30,139 bases of DNA from a virus. Position 1 is the stretch's first letter. Each line of letters begins with the position of its first letter. The notes under the pieces were generated by a model that searched no databases, was not told the origin of the DNA, and saw nothing but the letters and a program-made list of their open reading frames with translations. The stretch covers positions 1-30,139 of IMG/VR virus record IMGVR_UViG_3300048837_001823; one strand, given 5' to 3'. Of the stretch, positions 7,319 through 21,422 are shown piece by piece. The translations under genes were made by a program, and so were the position numbers.

Positions 7319-7557
7319 TCAACTCGTTCCTCGGGATGAAGATCGTCGTCAGCCAGCACGCTGTCCGAATCACCGTCTCCGAAGAGCGCCTGTTCCCTGC
7401 GTCGCGGCATCGCAGCGCACGGATCCACAAGAAACTCGTCAAGCGATATGGAGGTGAATTCAAAGTCAAGATCACGCCTATCACCTACGTGATGGGGAAC
7501 ACCCTGTTCACGCACCCAACCCTATACGAGGAACTCAAGCGAAATGCGAAACGATAA
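7315..7557 (+). CDS. Hypothetical protein (80 aa), GTG start
   Basis: A GTG at 7315 overlaps the previous stop as GTGA, and an AAGGAAA sequence lies upstream at 7302-7308. An in-frame ATG at 7336 lacks a clear ribosome binding site. The product is basic, with SRHRSARIHKKLVKRYGGEF in the middle and a YVMGNTLFTHPTLYEEL C-terminal segment. I recall similar short basic proteins in other phages, all without a function. The basic stretch could contact nucleic acid. Confidence 0.68.
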   Translation: MINSFLGMKIVVSQHAVRITVSEERLFPASRHRSARIHKKLVKRYGGEFKVKITPITYVMGNTLFTHPTLYEELKRNAKR

Positions 7558-7810
7558 CCTGCTCGGTTTCATGGCCTCCGACAAGGTCACCGGATTCAAG
7601 GGTCGCATCACCGCGGTCGTGGAATACCTGAGCGGCTGCACCCAGCTCCTGCTGAGCCCGCCCGTCAAGGACGATGGCACCGAGCGCGAGGGGAAGTTCT
7701 TCGACGTGCAGCGCGTGGTCATCGACTCCACCATCCCGGCCATCGTGCTGGACAACACCAAGACGCCCGGCTTCCAGCCCGGCACCGTCGGCCGGAGGGA
7801 GCACCCGTGA
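7544..7810 (+). CDS. Conserved small phage protein (88 aa)
   Basis: It has the pattern DKVTGFKGRITAVVEYLSGC followed by LLLSPPVKDDGT and FFDVQRV, which I recall from a widespread small phage protein of unknown function with 'DKVTGF-G-VT---YLTGC-Q'. The ATG at 7544 overlaps the previous gene by 14 bases; a second ATG at 7571 is possible. The likely fold is a small beta barrel. Its stop overlaps the dUTPase start as GTGA, so it may be co-expressed with nucleotide metabolism. Confidence 0.78.
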   Translation: MRNDNLLGFMASDKVTGFKGRITAVVEYLSGCTQLLLSPPVKDDGTEREGKFFDVQRVVIDSTIPAIVLDNTKTPGFQPGTVGRREHP

Positions 7811-8235
7811 TCCTCAAGGTCGCAACCCTTGAACACGCCGTCGCTCTTCCGTCATATGCGACGGAGGGCGCTGCCGGTATGGACATCGCCAGCGCAGACA
7901 CGGGCATCGTCTACTACGGGATGCATCGCATTTTCCGCACCGGCCTGATGTTCGAGGTCCCCCCTGGGCACGAGCTCCAGATCCGCAGCCGTTCGGGCAT
8001 GGCCGCGAAGCACAAGATCTTCGTGCTGAACTCGCCGGGCACGCTGGACTGCGACTACCGGGGGGAACTGATGATCGTCCTGATGAATCTGGGCGACACG
8101 AACTACGAAGTCAAGCGCGGAGATCGCATCGCGCAGGCGGTCCTCGCCCCCTTCCTGCGGGCCGAGATCGACTACGTGGAGGAACTGACGCCCACGGCGC
8201 GCGGGGCCGGAGGATTCGGCAGCACGGGGGCCTAA
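7807..8235 (+). CDS. dut: dUTPase (dUTP diphosphatase)
   Basis: It hydrolyses dUTP to dUMP and pyrophosphate, keeping uracil out of DNA and supplying dUMP to thymidylate synthase-family enzymes. All five trimeric dUTPase motifs are present in order: AGMDI at 23-27, RSRSGMA at 60-66, a motif III with D83-Y84-RGE at 75-87, RGDRIAQ at 104-110 and the glycine-rich RGAGGFGSTG at 132-141. The 142-residue length is normal. The GTG at 7807 overlaps the previous stop as GTGA. In this window it would feed dUMP to the TS-family enzyme at 10745-11650. Confidence 0.95.
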   Translation: MILKVATLEHAVALPSYATEGAAGMDIASADTGIVYYGMHRIFRTGLMFEVPPGHELQIRSRSGMAAKHKIFVLNSPGTLDCDYRGELMIVLMNLGDTNYEVKRGDRIAQAVLAPFLRAEIDYVEELTPTARGAGGFGSTGA

Positions 8236-8273: not shown

Positions 8274-8323
8274 GATTGGGTCGGGGCAGGGTGCCCCGAT
8301 CGAAACACTCCCAGGAGACTATC

Positions 8324-8986
8324 ATGGCCGACACGGTCGATATCGAAGAACTGGACGCCTCCGACCTCGCCGACATCCTCTCCGAGGTCAACGGCAAGGC
8401 CACCAAGGTCAAGAACGTCGCCGCCGCGCGCAAGGAGCTCGCCGGCCTGCTCGAGAGCAAGAGCCTCGTGCTCACCACCGACGACGAGGGCAATTTCGTC
8501 CTGAACCCCAAGAAGGCCGCGAAGACCAAGGCGAAGGCCAAGGCGCCGGAGCCCGATGAGGAAGAGGAAGCCGAAGAGGAAGCCGAGGAGGAAGCCGAGG
8601 AGGAAGCCGAGGAGGAGGTCGAGGAGGAGAAGCCCGCCCCGAAGACCAAGACCAAGGTGAAGGCCAAGGCGCCGGAGCCCGAGGAGGAGGCCGAGGAGGA
8701 AGAAGCGCCGAAGGCCAAGTCCAAGACCAAGGCGGCCCCGGCCAAGGACGGCGCGAAGCGGGCGCCGCCGCCCCGCGAGCCCACCCTGAAGGACGACATG
8801 ACCATCACCGTCGTCAACAAGACGCCCAAGTTCGCCGAGGACTCCTTCCGGGCGCGCAAGTGGGACGTCCTGAAGAAGGCCAAGACGGTCGGCGCCTACA
8901 TGAAGGCGGCCGAGGCGGCCGAGCTCCCGTCGGCGCGCGGCTTCCTGACGGTGTGCATGAAGGCCGAATACATCACCATTTCCTGA
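8324..8986 (+). CDS. Acidic repeat protein with Glu/Ala and Lys/Ala/Pro linkers (220 aa)
   Basis: The start is ATG 8324 with AGGAG at 8313-8317, directly downstream of promoter P4. An N-terminal helical part (ADTVDIEELDASDLADILSE, residues 2-21) is followed by a long low-complexity region, about residues 65-150. This region alternates Lys/Ala/Pro segments (KAKAKAPEP) with Glu/Ala blocks (EEEAEEEAEEE). A compact C-terminal domain (FRARKWDVLKKAKTVGAYMKAAEA, RGFLTVCMKAEYITIS) ends the protein. At DNA level a 12-base unit is repeated over 8561-8629 and a 24-base unit occurs twice. The long acidic tract could mimic DNA or bind basic proteins. No relative with a known function is recognised. The strong promoter and leader suggest high expression. 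Confidence 0.8.
   Translation: MADTVDIEELDASDLADILSEVNGKATKVKNVAAARKELAGLLESKSLVLTTDDEGNFVLNPKKAAKTKAKAKAPEPDEEEEAEEEAEEEAEEEAEEEVEEEKPAPKTKTKVKAKAPEPEEEAEEEEAPKAKSKTKAAPAKDGAKRAPPPREPTLKDDMTITVVNKTPKFAEDSFRARKWDVLKKAKTVGAYMKAAEAAELPSARGFLTVCMKAEYITIS
8533..8682 (+). repeat. 24-bp direct repeat and 12-bp tandem units within the acidic-repeat gene
   Basis: An identical 24-base sequence, beginning GAAGGCCAAGGC and ending GGAGCCCGA, occurs at 8533-8556 and 8659-8682, 126 bases apart. Between them, 12-base units close to GAGGAAGCCGAG are tandemly repeated (about 8561-8629). Both encode the alternating basic and acidic linker segments, so the gene likely grew by internal duplication and may vary in length between strains. 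Confidence 0.8.
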
Positions 8987-12897: not shown

Positions 12898-13233
12898 ATG
12901 TCGAACGCAGGCAAAAAGATGGTCAACTGGAAGCGAGACCACGCTGTCCTGCGAGTAGCCCTCGGGCTGCTCAGGCGGGACGGCTTCACGTCGCTTCACG
13001 CGGCGCGCTTCCTCATGTCGCACGAGGCGACCGCGGCCGTGAGAGAAGACTGCCTGCGGCTGGGCCGCGAGCTCACCGATGAGGCGCTGGCCAGCCGTAT
13101 GAAGCGAATCGAGGAGCTCGACTGGCTCGAGACCAACCGCCCTGCGATGTTCAAGGCTGGCAAGGCCCTGAGCCGCGTGTTGAAGCGCGATCTCCGCGCT
13201 GCTCACATCGAATCCTTCTCGGCGCTCGGCTGA
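12898..13233 (+). CDS. Hypothetical protein (111 aa), upstream of polymerase
   Basis: Not recognised. ATG 12898 has only a weak AAGG at 12884-12887. The protein is basic and mostly helical: GKKMVNWKRDHAVLRVALGLLRRDG, HAARFLMSHEATAAVRED and KALSRVLKRDLRAAHIE. Its last base overlaps the polymerase start (TGATG), so the two are translated together and it may assist replication. No helix-turn-helix signature is clear. Confidence 0.7.
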   Translation: MSNAGKKMVNWKRDHAVLRVALGLLRRDGFTSLHAARFLMSHEATAAVREDCLRLGRELTDEALASRMKRIEELDWLETNRPAMFKAGKALSRVLKRDLRAAHIESFSALG

Positions 13234-15125
13234 TGTTTCCGGAGATTACGATCGTGGATTGGCAACCCCCCGGCCCAGAGCTTCCTGAGATTCCGGCAGG
13301 CTCCCTCGTCGCGCTTGACTTGGAAACCCACGACCCGATGCTCAAGAGGCTCGGTCCGGGATGGGCTTTCAACGAGGGCTTCATCTGCGGCGTGGCCCTG
13401 GCGTGGGGCCTCGAGACGCTCGACGAAGTCCGCTACTACCCTCTTCGTCACGCAGGGGGGAATTGGACAGGGGACATCGGAAAGTTCATGCGATGGCTGC
13501 GCGCCCAGCTCCGTCGCGGCGATCTCGAGTGGTGCTTCGCGAACTCGTCCTACGACCTGGGCTGGCTCAACGTGGTGCCGGAAGGACGGATCCACGACGT
13601 CCAAGTCAGCGCCCCCCTGCTCAACGAGCATCGTTGGTCCTACAGCCTGGACAATCTGGCCAAGGACGAGCTCGGCGAAGGCAAGGACGAATCGCTGCTC
13701 AAGGAATGGGCGAGGCGTGCGGGCATCAAAGACAACCCGAAGGGGATGATGGCCGAAATGCCGTCGTTCGCTGTCGGGCCGTATGCTGAGCAGGACGCAT
13801 CGGCGACGTGGCGCCTACACAAGATTTTCATGCCTCGCATCCGCGAGCAGGACCTCGGCAAGATCTACCGGCTCGAGATGGACCTCGTTCCAATGCTGAT
13901 GGAAATGCGAAGGGCGGGGGTCAAGGTGAATGTCTCCCGCGCGCAACGGCTCCGGGAAGAGCTCCTGGTCGAGGAGAACGACCAGTCTCGAGCGCTCAAA
14001 CATCTCACAGGCATCCGCATGACCGCCTGGGATATTCAGTCCCAGATCCGGGTGCTGAAGAACGAGGGTGTCAAGGGATTCCCTGTCACACCCAAGTTGA
14101 AAAAGGAGGGCCTCACGGGGCCGTTCCTCGATCAACTCAGTAAGCACCAGAACAAGGCCGGTGAAGTCGCTCGCGCCATCCTCAACCTGCGCCGGAAGAA
14201 CCGCCAGCGGGTGACCTTCGTTGACCGGCTGGTGCTGGAGCATCACTACAACGGGCGCATTCACGCTCAATTCAATCAGCTCAAGTCCGACGACGGCGGC
14301 ACCGTGTCTGGCCGATTCTCCAGCCAAGACCCGAACCTCCAACAATTACCTGCGAGAGATGAGGAAGTGGCCAGCCTGATTCGCGGCTTGGTGGAGGCGG
14401 ACGATGGAGAACTCCTGGCCAGCGCGGACTATGCGTCGCAGGAACCTCGCCTCGCTGTCCATTGGGCCGTGGAAGGAGGCAGCCGTTTGGCCCAGAAGAT
14501 GGCCCAGAAGTTCCACGAGAACCCGCGCCTGGATCTACATCAGCAGGTCGCCGACATCATGACCATCAAACGGTCCAGCGCCAAGATCCTCAATCTGGCG
14601 CAGATGTATGGTCAAGGGGGTGGAAGTCTCTGTATCGCCCTGGGCCTGGACGCCTTCCCGGACAGTTTCGTGAACGACGCCGGTCAGGAGATCCACTATC
14701 TGGCGCCGGGCCGCGAAGGTCGCCGACTCCTCGACGAATACAACAAGGTGATGCCTTTCATGAAGGCGACAGCCAAGGCTGCTGAGCGCGATGCCCGCCG
14801 CGACGGATACATCACGACGCTCCTGGGTCGGCGTTGTCGAGTATTCCACTACCCCAATGGCGGCGATGACGCCCGCAAGATGTTCAACCGGCGCATTCAG
14901 GGCAGCGCGGCCGACATGACCAAGAAGTCGATGCTAGACGCGTGGCGGGCCGGATACAAGGTCAGGCTGACAGTCCACGACGAGAACGTATTCAGCGTCG
15001 AGAACGAAAAGCAGGCGCGCGAGTGCGTCGAGATCATGAACGACGCCGTCCAGCTCCACGTTCCGGTTGTGAGCGATCTGGCGATCGGACGGACCTGGGG
15101 GGACATGCGAGAACTGGTCACATAA
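13233..15125 (+). CDS. Family A DNA polymerase with 3'-5' exonuclease domain
   Basis: This is the replicative DNA polymerase. The N-terminal exonuclease has Exo I LDLETHD (D29, E31), Exo II NSSYDLGWL, and Exo III YAEQDASATWRL. The polymerase core has motif A SADYASQEPRL (D399), motif B with R447, K451 and Y459-G460 in RSSAKILNLAQMYGQG, and motif C VHDENV (H582-D583-E584). It is 630 residues and lacks the 5'-nuclease domain, as is usual in phages. The residue equivalent to E. coli Pol I F762 is L455, a substitution associated in family A surveys with slower, more accurate enzymes. The ligase and SNF2 helicase lie in the same unit. Confidence 0.95.
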   Translation: MFPEITIVDWQPPGPELPEIPAGSLVALDLETHDPMLKRLGPGWAFNEGFICGVALAWGLETLDEVRYYPLRHAGGNWTGDIGKFMRWLRAQLRRGDLEWCFANSSYDLGWLNVVPEGRIHDVQVSAPLLNEHRWSYSLDNLAKDELGEGKDESLLKEWARRAGIKDNPKGMMAEMPSFAVGPYAEQDASATWRLHKIFMPRIREQDLGKIYRLEMDLVPMLMEMRRAGVKVNVSRAQRLREELLVEENDQSRALKHLTGIRMTAWDIQSQIRVLKNEGVKGFPVTPKLKKEGLTGPFLDQLSKHQNKAGEVARAILNLRRKNRQRVTFVDRLVLEHHYNGRIHAQFNQLKSDDGGTVSGRFSSQDPNLQQLPARDEEVASLIRGLVEADDGELLASADYASQEPRLAVHWAVEGGSRLAQKMAQKFHENPRLDLHQQVADIMTIKRSSAKILNLAQMYGQGGGSLCIALGLDAFPDSFVNDAGQEIHYLAPGREGRRLLDEYNKVMPFMKATAKAAERDARRDGYITTLLGRRCRVFHYPNGGDDARKMFNRRIQGSAADMTKKSMLDAWRAGYKVRLTVHDENVFSVENEKQARECVEIMNDAVQLHVPVVSDLAIGRTWGDMRELVT

Positions 15126-16940: not shown

Positions 16941-17269
16941 GCGCGCTGCACCGAGTTCTCGAGTTCTACATCAAGGAAGCCTGGACCAAGGCAGATGATG
17001 GAACGATGGTTCCCTCAGCGGCCCTGCTCGCCGACAGGGGGGTGATGGCCCTGGATTTCATGCACCCGACGGTGACGATCAGCCCCCCGCCCGAGGCCGC
17101 GGTCCAGGCCGCCTACCGGGTGGCGATCGCAGAGATCTGCGAGTCCCTGCGCGACGTGATCGACGCGATGAGCATGCCGCACACCGAGGCCCGCACGATG
17201 AAGATTGGCAGCGCCTGCGTCGCGCTGCAGAACGCCGAGTATCGCATTCGCTCGGTGACGCGGTCATGA
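16937..17269 (+). CDS. Hypothetical helical protein (110 aa)
   Basis: Not recognised. ATG 16937 overlaps the previous stop as ATGA. The protein is mainly helical: ALHRVLEFYIKEAW, AAVQAAYRVAIAEICESLRDVIDAM and ARTMKIGSACVALQNAEYRI. A proline-rich turn (ISPPPEAA) separates the halves. The stop overlaps the next start. Confidence 0.68.
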   Translation: MSALHRVLEFYIKEAWTKADDGTMVPSAALLADRGVMALDFMHPTVTISPPPEAAVQAAYRVAIAEICESLRDVIDAMSMPHTEARTMKIGSACVALQNAEYRIRSVTRS

Positions 17270-17535
17270 GTGTCAATGTTTTCAAGTATCCTCTTCCGCA
17301 AGAAGACAACCGCGTGCAGATGCCGCTGCTCGCCAAAGTTCTGTGTCTGCATTCACAGAACGAGTGCCCGACGATTTGGGCGCAAGTAGATCCTTCCCTG
17401 CCTACGGAAGAGCGAAGGTTTCTACTCATTCCCACTGGCGCAGAAATTCCTAACGACGCTCGGCGAGGATATGTAGGCACTGTTCTTCTGATGAGCGGAG
17501 GCCTAGTGCTCCACGTCTACGAGATAAGCAGATGA
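17266..17535 (+). CDS. Conserved small phage protein, DUF7352-like (89 aa)
   Basis: The pattern VFKYPLPQEDNRVQMPLLAK, then PTIWAQVDPSLPTEERRFLLIPTG and GYVGTVLLMSGGLVLHVYE is familiar from a common small phage protein family, which I recall as DUF7352. It looks like a small beta-rich fold; no activity is known. It overlaps both neighbours by four bases (ATGA) and so belongs to the same coupled run. Confidence 0.75.
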   Translation: MSVNVFKYPLPQEDNRVQMPLLAKVLCLHSQNECPTIWAQVDPSLPTEERRFLLIPTGAEIPNDARRGYVGTVLLMSGGLVLHVYEISR

Positions 17536-17891
17536 CCGTCTATGTCGACGACATGTATCGCTATCCCATGGGCCAGTTCGGCCGCATGCGGATGAGCCAT
17601 CTGATCGCCGACACCGAAGAAGAACTGCACGCGATGGCGGACGCAATCGGCATCGCACGACGCTGGTATCAGGGTGACCACTACGACATCAGCATGAGCA
17701 AGCGCGACGAAGCCATTCAGCGGGGGGCTGTTCCTATCCCACTGCGACTGCTCGCTGCGATGTGTGCTATCCGTCGTAAGACCGGTCGCCTGCCCACCCC
17801 GGAGGAGACCTACTCCTTCGACTTCAAAATGGCCGTGCGTGGCACCGTGACAATCCGGAGAACCCGAAGTGCGCCTGATTCAACCGGCTGA
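17532..17891 (+). CDS. DUF4031 family protein
   Basis: The start MTVYVDDMYRYPMGQFGRMRMSHLIADTEEELHAMADAIG, the central RRWYQGDHYDIS and KRDEAIQRGAVPIPLR match DUF4031, a small family seen in phages and bacteria. Its conserved acidic and His residues (VDD, H in SHLIADT, HYDIS) hint at a metal-binding site, but no reaction is established. It overlaps the helicase gene by 23 bases. Confidence 0.8.
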   Translation: MTVYVDDMYRYPMGQFGRMRMSHLIADTEEELHAMADAIGIARRWYQGDHYDISMSKRDEAIQRGAVPIPLRLLAAMCAIRRKTGRLPTPEETYSFDFKMAVRGTVTIRRTRSAPDSTG

Positions 17892-19296
17892 GATCATCCC
17901 CCCTCCGCGCGACCACCAGAAAGAGGCGCTGCGTTTCATCGAGAAGAAAGAGAACCCGGAGTTCGCCGGGCTGTTCATGGAGCCGGGCACTGGCAAGACG
18001 AAGACCGCTATCCTGCGGGTAGCGAAACTCTACCGTGAGAAGAGGATCGACGTGGCCCTGATCTGGGCGCCCAACGGAGTCCACGCACAGTGGATAGAAG
18101 AGCAGGCTGTCGAGCATTGCCCCGTTCCATATCGCACCGTCGTCTGGTCTTCAAACCGATCGAAGCGGTGGAAAGACCAAACGCTCTACACGCTTAAGAA
18201 GACAGACGCGCTGATTCTGGTGGCCATGAATTGGGAAGCGCTGACAACCAAAGACGGCGTGAATTTCTGCCGTTGGTTGATGAAGCAGAAGCGAGTGGCC
18301 CTGGTCGCAGACGAGTCCAGCCGCATTCGCAACCCCAAGGCGATACGAACCAAGACTGCACTGAATATCGCCCCCGAGGCCGCGCACCGGATGATCCTCA
18401 CCGGCACCCCCCTGGTGAAAGGCTTCGAGAATCTGTGGAGCCAACTGACGTTTTTGTCGCCGGACATTTTGCGATGCCGAACGTTCATTCAATTTCGTTC
18501 GCTCTATTGCAAACTGAAGCCGATTATCGGCGCGCCCAGGGGGGCCATGCAGATCACGGGATATCAAAGAGTCGACGAACTGATGTCCAAGATCAAACCG
18601 CATGTGTTCGTCAAGACGAAGAAGGAGTGCTTGGACCTTCCTGACAAGATTCCCATTCCCAGCCCGGTGCCCCTGACAGACGCGCAGGCTGAAGCCTACG
18701 AGACAATGAGAGACGAACTGCTCGTCCAGCTCTCGGAGCTCGAGGTCGTGACAGTGGCCCACCTGATTTCTGCGCGTGCGAAGCTCAGGCAGATCTCCAT
18801 CGGTTTCATTCTTGACAAGGACAAGAAAGCCACCCCCCTGCCGTCGCATCGGTGGGAGCGGACGCTGGAGCACCTGGAGGAAGCTCCCGGCAAGACCATC
18901 TTGTGGACTTCGTTCCGTTGGTGCCTGGGCGAGTGGGAGCGTCTCCTGGCCAAGCATCGTATCGGTTTCGTGCGATACCAAAAAGGCGACAACGAGTCTA
19001 TACGCCAATGGAAGCGTGATCCCAAAACCAAGGTGTTCCTGGGCAACCCACACTCCGGCGGCATCGGTTTGAATCTGGCCGAGGCCGATACGATGATCTT
19101 TTTTAATAACGTGGACGACCTGGAAATTCGTCTTCAGGCAGAAGACAGGGCACATCGCATCGGGCAGACGAAGCATTTATCTCTGATAGATCTCTACGCT
19201 CCCGATACTGTCGAAACGAAAATGCAGAAACAACAAAAAGAAAAGATGTCTTTAGTGGATATAGTCATGCGGGGGGACTGGAGAGACGCTTTGTGA
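17869..19296 (+). CDS. SNF2-type superfamily 2 helicase/translocase
   Basis: An ATP-driven DNA translocase or helicase of 475 residues. Visible motifs are Walker A MEPGTGKT at 37-44, motif II VADESS (DESS in place of DEAH) at 146-151, motif III LTGTPL at 177-182 and, in the second RecA-like domain, SGGIGLNLAEADTMIFFN and QAEDRAHRIGQTK with the SNF2-type arginine near residue 430. No extra DNA-binding or nuclease domain is attached. Phage relatives are thought to aid replication or recombination. The GTG at 17869 has GGAG at 17856-17859. A promoter (P7) begins the next unit after it. Confidence 0.92.
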   Translation: MRLIQPAEIIPPPRDHQKEALRFIEKKENPEFAGLFMEPGTGKTKTAILRVAKLYREKRIDVALIWAPNGVHAQWIEEQAVEHCPVPYRTVVWSSNRSKRWKDQTLYTLKKTDALILVAMNWEALTTKDGVNFCRWLMKQKRVALVADESSRIRNPKAIRTKTALNIAPEAAHRMILTGTPLVKGFENLWSQLTFLSPDILRCRTFIQFRSLYCKLKPIIGAPRGAMQITGYQRVDELMSKIKPHVFVKTKKECLDLPDKIPIPSPVPLTDAQAEAYETMRDELLVQLSELEVVTVAHLISARAKLRQISIGFILDKDKKATPLPSHRWERTLEHLEEAPGKTILWTSFRWCLGEWERLLAKHRIGFVRYQKGDNESIRQWKRDPKTKVFLGNPHSGGIGLNLAEADTMIFFNNVDDLEIRLQAEDRAHRIGQTKHLSLIDLYAPDTVETKMQKQQKEKMSLVDIVMRGDWRDAL

Positions 19297-20456: not shown

Positions 20457-20869
20457 TGGAACCCCTGGCAGCGATGCCCACGCCGAATCAGACGCTGAAC
20501 ATGGAGCAGCGGTGGAATCGGCGATCGTTGATCATTGAGTTCACCTGCCCCGCCCACCTGATCGACAGCGTGGAATTCTGTTCCAAGCGCAATCAAGCCG
20601 ACGCGCTCCGGCTGGCGCTCATGGGTGTGGTGAATTTGTTCATCCGCGATGCGTCCGGCTGGCGCGGCTTCAACGGCGGTCCAGACGGCCCAGAGCCTCC
20701 TGTGCCGGGCGAAGTCACGCGTGTCGTGTTTTCGCCGGACAGCGTTCGCCGACCGTCTTTCACTTTCCGGGGCGAGAAGATTCCCGACAAGCCCGGCGCC
20801 AAGCCCGTGCCGATCCTGCACGGCGGTCTGATCTATCGCGACGCAGAAGGATGGAGCATCCACACATGA
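20456..20869 (+). CDS. Hypothetical protein (137 aa)
   Basis: Not recognised. ATG 20456 overlaps the previous stop; an in-frame GTG at 20453 is an equal alternative. After a polar start the protein has RRSLIIEFTCPAHLIDSVEF, a helix (NQADALRLALMGVVNLFIRDASG), then a proline/glycine-rich stretch and beta-like ends (VTRVVFSPD, FTFRGEKI, ILHGGLIYRD). Confidence 0.66.
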   Translation: MEPLAAMPTPNQTLNMEQRWNRRSLIIEFTCPAHLIDSVEFCSKRNQADALRLALMGVVNLFIRDASGWRGFNGGPDGPEPPVPGEVTRVVFSPDSVRRPSFTFRGEKIPDKPGAKPVPILHGGLIYRDAEGWSIHT

Positions 20870-21066
20870 TCTACAAGGACAAGCGCCACCACCCGAGCCG
20901 GGTGTTCGTGGTGACCAAGACTCTTCGCGTGAAGAAGGGCAAGGTCGTGACCAATCGCATCTACGGCCTGGAACTTCAAGACGGGCAGGAACAGCCTGTC
21001 GAGACTTCTTACCTGCAGAAGGACTTCGACAAGGCATACCCGATCGTGATGTGGGCACCTGCCTAG
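20866..21066 (+). CDS. Hypothetical basic protein (66 aa), last gene of the rightward unit
   Basis: Not recognised. ATG 20866 overlaps the previous stop as ATGA; another in-frame ATG lies at 20851. The protein is basic and beta-rich (RVFVVTKTLRVKKGKVVTNRIYGLELQD). It is the last rightward gene before the convergent gap; the -35 hexamer of the candidate RNA promoter begins two bases before its stop codon ends. Confidence 0.63.
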   Translation: MIYKDKRHHPSRVFVVTKTLRVKKGKVVTNRIYGLELQDGQEQPVETSYLQKDFDKAYPIVMWAPA

Positions 21067-21093
21067 TCACATCAGCCTGGGGGGTGCTAGACT
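21064..21093 (+). promoter_or_regulatory. Extended -10 promoter P8 of a candidate small RNA
   Basis: TAGTCA at 21064-21069 and TGCTAGACT, -10 TAGACT at 21088-21093, have an 18-base spacer and an extended TG at 21085-21086. The -10 lies in an inverted repeat, GCTAG (21086-21090) and CTAGC (21096-21100), that could bind a regulator. It points towards a structured sequence and a U-tract terminator, with no open reading frame of convincing quality between. Confidence 0.55.
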
Positions 21094-21099
21094 CCCTAG

Positions 21100-21226
21100 C
21101 GCGGCCCCTCTGGCGGTATCCTTCCGTCCCCACTCCCGCGCAGGTCCGGGCTCCTGAGAGAGGGGTGCAGCCCGGACGTCTCCCTGCAAACTCAGAGGCG
21201 GTGCTGAAAAGCCCGCCTCTCTTTTT
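21100..21226 (+). ncRNA. Candidate structured small RNA at the convergent junction
   Basis: A transcript from promoter P8 would run about 125 nt to the terminator. It contains GCGCGG (21099-21104) pairing with CCGCGC (21136-21141), and a perfect 9-bp stem GTCCGGGCT (21144-21152) with AGCCCGGAC (21169-21177). The loop of the second stem has AGAGGGG (21159-21165), complementary over seven bases to CCCCTCT (21105-21111) in the first loop, so a kissing-loop or pseudoknot is possible. An outer GCAGG/CCTGC pair (21140-21144, 21183-21187) competes with stem ends. I recognise no known RNA family. A regulatory RNA, an untranslated leader, or a packaging-related structure are alternatives. Confidence 0.5.
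21194..21226 (+). terminator. Intrinsic terminator with U-tract
   Basis: AGAGGCGG (21194-21201) pairs with CCGCCTCT (21213-21220), with an inner GC...GC pair around TGAAAA, followed by CTTTTTG. This is the only textbook Rho-independent terminator seen in the window. It ends the candidate small RNA and the rightward unit. Confidence 0.85.
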
Positions 21227-21236
21227 GATCAGCGCG

Positions 21237-21359
21237 TAGGCAAGCCTCGCCAGGGGGCCTAGGCGGCGCTGCGCTACCCCAGCCCCACCCCCCCCCGCCA
21301 AGGGGCTCAAAACAGGCTTGCCGGGCAGCCAGAATAACCACTCCACAAATAGGCAAGGC
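21237..21359. repeat. Three AGGCAAGCC-like words in the convergent gap
   Basis: TAGGCAAGCC (21237-21246), CAGGCTTGCC on the plus strand (21313-21322, the inverse orientation) and TAGGCAAGGC (21350-21359) are spaced by 76 and 37 bases. The same word forms the inverted repeat at promoter P6 and overlaps promoter P7. They may be binding sites for one phage or host protein. A C9 run lies between them at 21288-21296. Confidence 0.45.
21271..21291 (+). repeat. 21-base element shared with 12856-12876
   Basis: GCGCTACCCC-A-GCCCCACCCC differs at one base from the copy after the DUF3310 gene. Here it lies between the U-tract terminator and the leftward genes and runs into a C9 tract. It has no clear -35 upstream. 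Confidence 0.55.
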
Positions 21360-21384
21360 GGCAGGGGACCACCCCCCGCCGCCT
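21356..21384 (-). terminator. Hairpin ending the leftward unit
   Basis: AGGCGGC (21356-21362) and GCCGCCT (21378-21384) form a stem that can extend through G4/C4 pairing. It lies 39-67 bases beyond the stop of the last leftward gene and could end transcription in either direction. No T-run is present in the leftward reading. Confidence 0.5.
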
Positions 21385-21422
21385 CTCCTAAGTTCACCCG
21401 AGGGGAAAGATGATACGGGTGC

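Follow-up and report, generated by a model that had tools for sequence, protein, structure and literature searches.

Prophages and model phages are the source of many of the small RNAs (sRNAs) known from phages, and comparative proof of their structure is rare. Two described RNAs are instructive for their loop contacts: the phage-borne packaging RNA of the phi29 type, ~120 nt in length, whose complementary loops pair between molecules, and the ZTP riboswitch, in which one strand of the first hairpin's internal loop forms a pseudoknot with the loop of a later hairpin. PreS of lambda, VpdS and c4 RNA are phage-encoded intergenic sRNAs, and c4 RNA is thought to hold complementary sequences in its loops (PMC12197685). 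Anti-Shine-Dalgarno (anti-SD) loops are an established mode of sRNA action, and SmelA075/SmelA099 and RS0680a are anti-SD hairpin sRNAs of Rhizobiales and Rhodobacter (PMC3927594).

Here we describe a locus that can be set beside each of these, in a contig from an uncultivated phage (G000; 30,139-base virus record, analysed whole and hereafter ‘the window’). Its RNA, presumably a short non-coding transcript of the phage genome, resembles PreS, VpdS and c4 RNA in kind, and c4 RNA also in the complementary sequences of its loops, without demonstrated kinship in sequence or structure; it differs in having a conserved two-tier hairpin and a likely pseudoknot, and in coming from uncultivated phages. 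With SmelA075/SmelA099 and RS0680a it shares C-rich anti-SD motifs in hairpin loops and stems whose sequences drift, but its loop reads UAUCCYU or AUACUCCCC, not CCUCCUCCC, and it is phage-borne, with a C-rich internal loop and the likely pseudoknot. Its length of ~120 nt, phage origin and complementary loops recall phi29-type packaging RNA, from which the lack of an Rfam match and the lambda-J-like tail gene of the window phage set it apart; its predicted pseudoknot has the topology of the ZTP riboswitch (internal-loop strand with the loop of a later hairpin), but here too Rfam gives no match, a downstream gene to control is lacking, and the conserved letters are others. A search of Rfam 15 gave 0 matches at gathering score, and neither the pRNA nor the ZTP family matched in the gap at E up to 10, in keeping with an earlier note on this DNA, which had found no resemblance to a known RNA; suhB/mmgR lies below threshold and is weighed further on. 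As two related phages, L081 and L100, keep the fold while the paired letters swap, we conclude that an uncultivated phage clade very probably has here a genuine RNA family not described before, of a kind (‘phage-encoded small RNA’) that is already known; that a structured RNA exists here we hold with high confidence.

The + strand of the window carries a replication cluster, with small genes running up to 21066, and the - strand a late cluster for lysis and tail (lambda-J-like tail gene, S74-chaperone tail fibre, M15 endolysin and peptidoglycan-binding protein). An ORF at 8276-8986 (+) contains a long E/A-rich repeat run (EEEAEEE), the rest of the replication cluster being ordinary. These convergent clusters meet at a gap, 21067-21422, and the claim that this is the single long gene-free gap is borne out, as it has no equal in the window. 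The landmarks are:

13233-15125, + strand: DNA polymerase A, replication cluster
17869-19296, + strand: SNF2-type helicase, replication cluster
20866-21066, + strand: final ORF of the replication cluster, 66 aa
21355-21385, - strand: terminator-like hairpin of the convergent late operon, with counterparts in L081 and L100
21423-21713, - strand: peptidoglycan-binding domain protein (PF01471), final gene of the late operon

Relatives were found through polymerase searches; both are uncultivated phage contigs long enough to span the junction, namely L081 (44.4-kb contig, polymerase 84% identical) and L100 (9.7-kb contig, polymerase 75% identical), and in profile scans with helicase and polymerase they were the sole close relatives reaching the gap. 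The RNA unit sits at the gene-cluster junction in both, as it does in the window. In L081 an extra ORF of ~160 aa separates the homolog of the window's 66-aa ORF (51% identical) from the gap (17717-18006), so the RNA is not bound to one upstream neighbour. That ORF (17228-17716) matches nothing in Pfam or PHROG. The + strand genes of L100 end with the homolog of the 138-aa gene (7511-7867), and the gene opposite, across the gap, differs from that of the window, such that both neighbours of the RNA differ. With the gap regions as queries, nothing notable came from nucleotide searches of INPHARED and PLSDB, and the collections searched gave no cultivated close relative of the window phage. Two other candidates were rejected as carriers of the RNA: YuA, related through its polymerase, has one-directional transcription over the stretch read, without this junction, and L002, whose endolysin is 76% identical, lacks such an RNA in its convergent gap. 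As the wider polymerase and endolysin relatives, YuA and L002 included, gave no match to a three-sequence model, the family seems confined to this clade, as far as searched.

The elements of the window RNA are as follows:

21064-21069, + strand: -35-like TAGTCA, read from the sequence at three loci, overlapping the stop codon of the upstream ORF
21085-21093, + strand: extended -10, TGCTAGACT
21100-21226, + strand: putative sRNA transcript, ~127 nt, placed from promoter position and terminator
21099-21141, + strand: hairpin 1, starting at the expected +1, 5 nt past the -10
21099-21104/21136-21141, + strand: outer stem P1 of hairpin 1, GCGCGG/CCGCGC, 6 bp
21105-21111 and 21129-21135, + strand: C-rich internal loop of hairpin 1
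21112-21116/21124-21128, + strand: inner stem P2 of hairpin 1, GGCGG/CCGUC, 5 bp
21117-21123, + strand: terminal loop of hairpin 1, UAUCCUU
21144-21177, + strand: hairpin 2, with a 9-bp stem (21144-21152/21169-21177) and a purine-rich 16-nt loop (21153-21168)
21105-21111, + strand: proposed 5' strand of the pseudoknot, CCCCUCU, in the internal loop of hairpin 1
21159-21165, + strand: proposed 3' strand of the pseudoknot, AGAGGGG, within the hairpin-2 loop
21194-21226, + strand: intrinsic terminator, 8-bp stem AGAGGCGG/CCGCCTCT (21194-21220), then CTTTTT

Upstream, L081 and L100 share one layout: TRGTCA, 17 nt, extended -10, 6 nt, hairpin 1. The -35-like element (TGGTCA in L081, TAGTCA in L100) is weak alone, with a 4/6 match to TTGACA, and TGNTANANT, which occurs once in the window, at 21085-21093, is expected 2.7 times by chance, so that the lone extended -10 is not significant. 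The extended -10 promoter that had been claimed is nonetheless present, and the promoter-like site is kept in both relatives (-10 counterparts TGCTAGAAT in L081 and TGATATAGT in L100), with a spacer from the -35-like element of 18, 17 and 17 nt in the window, L081 and L100 and a distance from -10 to hairpin 1 of 5 nt in the window and 6 nt in the other two. As judged from sequence, the RNA would then have a promoter of its own, made up of a -35-like element and an extended -10 at near-constant spacing at three loci. We infer independent transcription from this putative promoter, starting at ~21100 and running to the terminator.

Both stems of the earlier note were found, P1 at 21099-21104 with 21136-21141 and the perfect 9-bp stem of hairpin 2 (GTCCGGGCT/AGCCCGGAC) at 21144-21152 with 21169-21177, but P1 is not a simple stem-loop by itself: hairpin 1 has two tiers, of which P1 is the outer and a 5-bp stem the inner. 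Hairpin 1 pairs GUCCGG/CCGGAC (outer) and GGCAGC/GCUGUC (inner) in L081, and UUCGGU/ACCGAA (outer) and GGCGCCC/GGGCGUC (inner) in L100; hairpin 2 has CCCUCGG/CCGGGGG in L081 and CCUGCCG/CGGCAGG in L100, there followed by a U-rich tail, CAUCUUUCUUUAG. The window terminator, AGAGGCGG..CCGCCTCT-CTTTTTG, is the sole stem of at least 7 bp adjoining at least 5 Ts on either strand, which upholds that part of the earlier description, but it is a third hairpin, absent from the relatives: the 3' end is a clear terminator in the window, terminator-like in L100, and weak in L081, without a clear U-tract. The stretch 21100-21227 has a better fold than its shuffles (z = -2.57), and the RNA holds no conserved reading frame, as befits a non-coding RNA. 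For L081 taken alone, the best-scoring fold differs from the shared structure.

The covariation check in related phages that had been proposed was run, and promoter, both hairpins and loop complementarity are kept with compensatory changes. The comparison rests on three distinct sequences (window, L081 and L100). Because MAFFT alignments of the full RNA put the stems wrongly, a manual alignment of the whole RNA and an N-padded input for hairpin 1 were used. In the manual structural alignment 12/22 pairs are changed on both sides and 0 are broken, and unconstrained RNAalifold returns identical stems, statistics that are biased towards structure, since the alignment was made by hand along it. 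For hairpin 1 alone, 36/36 cells are paired and 7/13 pairs carry changes on both sides; neither value is reached in any of 500 shuffles, and sliding the structure lowers pairing to ~45-54%. Compensatory changes, the mark of a selected structure, thus appear in the manual alignment and in the hairpin 1 test alike.

An architecture descriptor was also applied (extended -10; an outer stem of at least 6 bp whose loop contains CCCC; an inner stem of at least 5 bp; a second stem of at least 7 bp whose loop contains GGGG), its bounds chosen after all three loci had been seen. It found one site per gap, on the + strand only, and 0 in 3000 dinucleotide shuffles of each gap; over 1.67 Mb of phage DNA it matched solely at the known sites (L087 and L095 being the L081 contig, and L001 the window). 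A scan for the hairpin-2 stem alone hit 32 contigs, and the architecture scan covering these matched just the known sites. Seven matches to a promoter plus hairpin 1 pattern beyond the L081 contig were inspected and rejected, the layout not being shared. A covariance model built from the window only, run over 557 kb, ranked L081 2nd and L100 3rd behind the window itself, with weak E-values (0.1 and 1.3 in 557 kb) and with the outer stem of L100 set one base off. At the level of sequence comparison, then, the hairpins, the promoter-like site and its fixed spacing are established.

The seven-base complementarity described earlier, CCCCUCU/AGAGGGG, is real, but the ‘kissing’ of two loops is not what it amounts to; as the 6-bp stem is an outer tier and the partner is an internal-loop strand, the contact would be pseudoknot-like. 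In the window, L081 and L100 the entire 5' internal-loop strand has its complement in the hairpin-2 loop, over 7, 7 and 5 bp, and within-loop letter shuffles equal the best complementarity of each RNA in 0.95%, 0.85% and 1.9% of cases. Local pairing of the G-rich segment inside loop 2 is also possible. As the longest complementarity in L100 (6 bp) is to the terminal loop instead, and as C-rich loops facing G-rich ones leave the register open, we consider a pseudoknot between internal-loop strand and hairpin-2 loop likely, though not settled.

Synthesising these findings, we propose a model in which a sigma70-type extended -10 promoter fires at ~21100 and the RNA opens directly with hairpin 1, whose outer stem leads into a C-rich internal loop and whose inner stem, with its conserved GGC/GUC base, is capped by the C/U-rich terminal loop UAUCCUU. 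The G-rich loop of hairpin 2 would pair with the 5' internal-loop strand, locking the RNA as a pseudoknot, and the U-tract hairpin would end transcription. The exposed, anti-SD-like C-rich loops may then engage, in trans, the ribosome-binding sites of mRNAs from the host or the phage, the C-rich strand being masked or presented by the pseudoknot. The C-rich loops of the three RNAs (UAUCCUU, AUACUCCCC and UAUCCCU; CCCCA) resemble the anti-SD motifs of sRNAs such as SmelA075, and the unpaired terminal loops contain UCCUU, UCCCU and CUCCCC. Against the start regions of the phage's own genes (phage targets only), shuffled loops do as well as the terminal loop in 0.16 of cases, and this own-phage search gave no stand-out target. 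Action in trans by base-pairing through the C-rich loops is probable, albeit held with lower confidence than the structure, and to the full statement of an independently transcribed, structured phage sRNA that pairs in trans we give a probability of roughly 0.55.

The main rival accepts the structured RNA but has it act through a bound protein, as a scaffold or as a decoy, rather than by pairing with mRNA; examples might be a packaging-RNA-like molecule, a counter-defence RNA, or a sponge that takes up host sRNAs or RNA-binding proteins. The overall shape is fixed while the stem sequences change freely, the internal-loop letters GGC and GUCCCCA are conserved, and the G-rich loop could titrate host sRNAs bearing C-rich loops, all of which would suit such a role; we nevertheless think it somewhat unlikely, as no known protein-binding motif was identified and neither phage pRNA nor another Rfam family matched at gathering score. 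In a related formulation, tentative but possible, a new pseudoknotted RNA family starting at +1, which stays at the replication/late-gene junction despite altered neighbours and an almost complete turnover of stem letters, would work via a bound host factor or as a scaffold and not by ordinary antisense pairing. A cis-acting leader on the transcript of this promoter (a put-type antiterminator, attenuator or riboswitch) could likewise start at +1, some riboswitches (ZTP) have this pseudoknot topology, and no strong terminator is seen past hairpin 2 in L081. We judge it improbable, since the next genes lie on the opposite strand, leaving no same-strand downstream gene in the window, L081 or L100, and a terminator-like end comes at once in the window and L100.

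It might also be argued that nothing lies here but the terminator region (3' UTR) of the + strand operon, the hairpins having arisen by chance in GC-rich DNA and the -10 being a coincidental match: the site ends an operon ahead of a convergent one, where terminators are expected, the GC content is 67%, a lone TGNTANANT is expected by chance and single-sequence z-scores are modest. Retention in L081 and L100 of promoter, spacing and both hairpins with compensatory changes, despite the intervening ORF in the one and different neighbours on both sides in the other, makes this quite improbable. We give very little credence to the idea that the phage carries a relative or mimic of mmgR (suhB, RF00519), an sRNA of alphaproteobacteria: at a lax threshold this was the best family, with 27.6 bits and E = 9e-4 at 21163-21233 (+), covering the terminator and the CUCCCU stretch ahead of it in the window copy, but the score is below the 41-bit cut-off, the first hairpin of the model is not formed, and neither L100 nor the L081 contig (searched as L095) has a match or similar sequence, so membership was rejected. 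The likeness of the 3' part of the window RNA might reflect convergence, mimicry or chance. Least credible to us is an element of single-stranded DNA whose hairpins serve replication initiation or recombination, an idea that paired hairpins within an intergenic gap could suggest; the promoter stands at constant spacing on the same strand at all three loci, no GC-skew switch occurs at the gap, and one inner-stem pair is G-U (G-T in DNA) in the window, L081 and L100, which favours RNA over DNA.

A phage RNA family is now at hand with compensatory changes in both hairpins, a predicted pseudoknot and a promoter-like site at fixed spacing, and this makes in vitro probing and a metatranscriptome search possible at once. 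Elsewhere in the gap, the hairpin at the end of the late operon is strong and GC-rich (GGCGGCGGGGGG-UGGUC-CCCCUGCCGCC), with a T-run at its L081 counterpart, and palindromic motifs of the CCTAGG/GCCTAGGC type recur in such gaps, at 21250-21270 in the window, at 8080-8195 in L100 and, in several copies, at 4911-5190 in L002.
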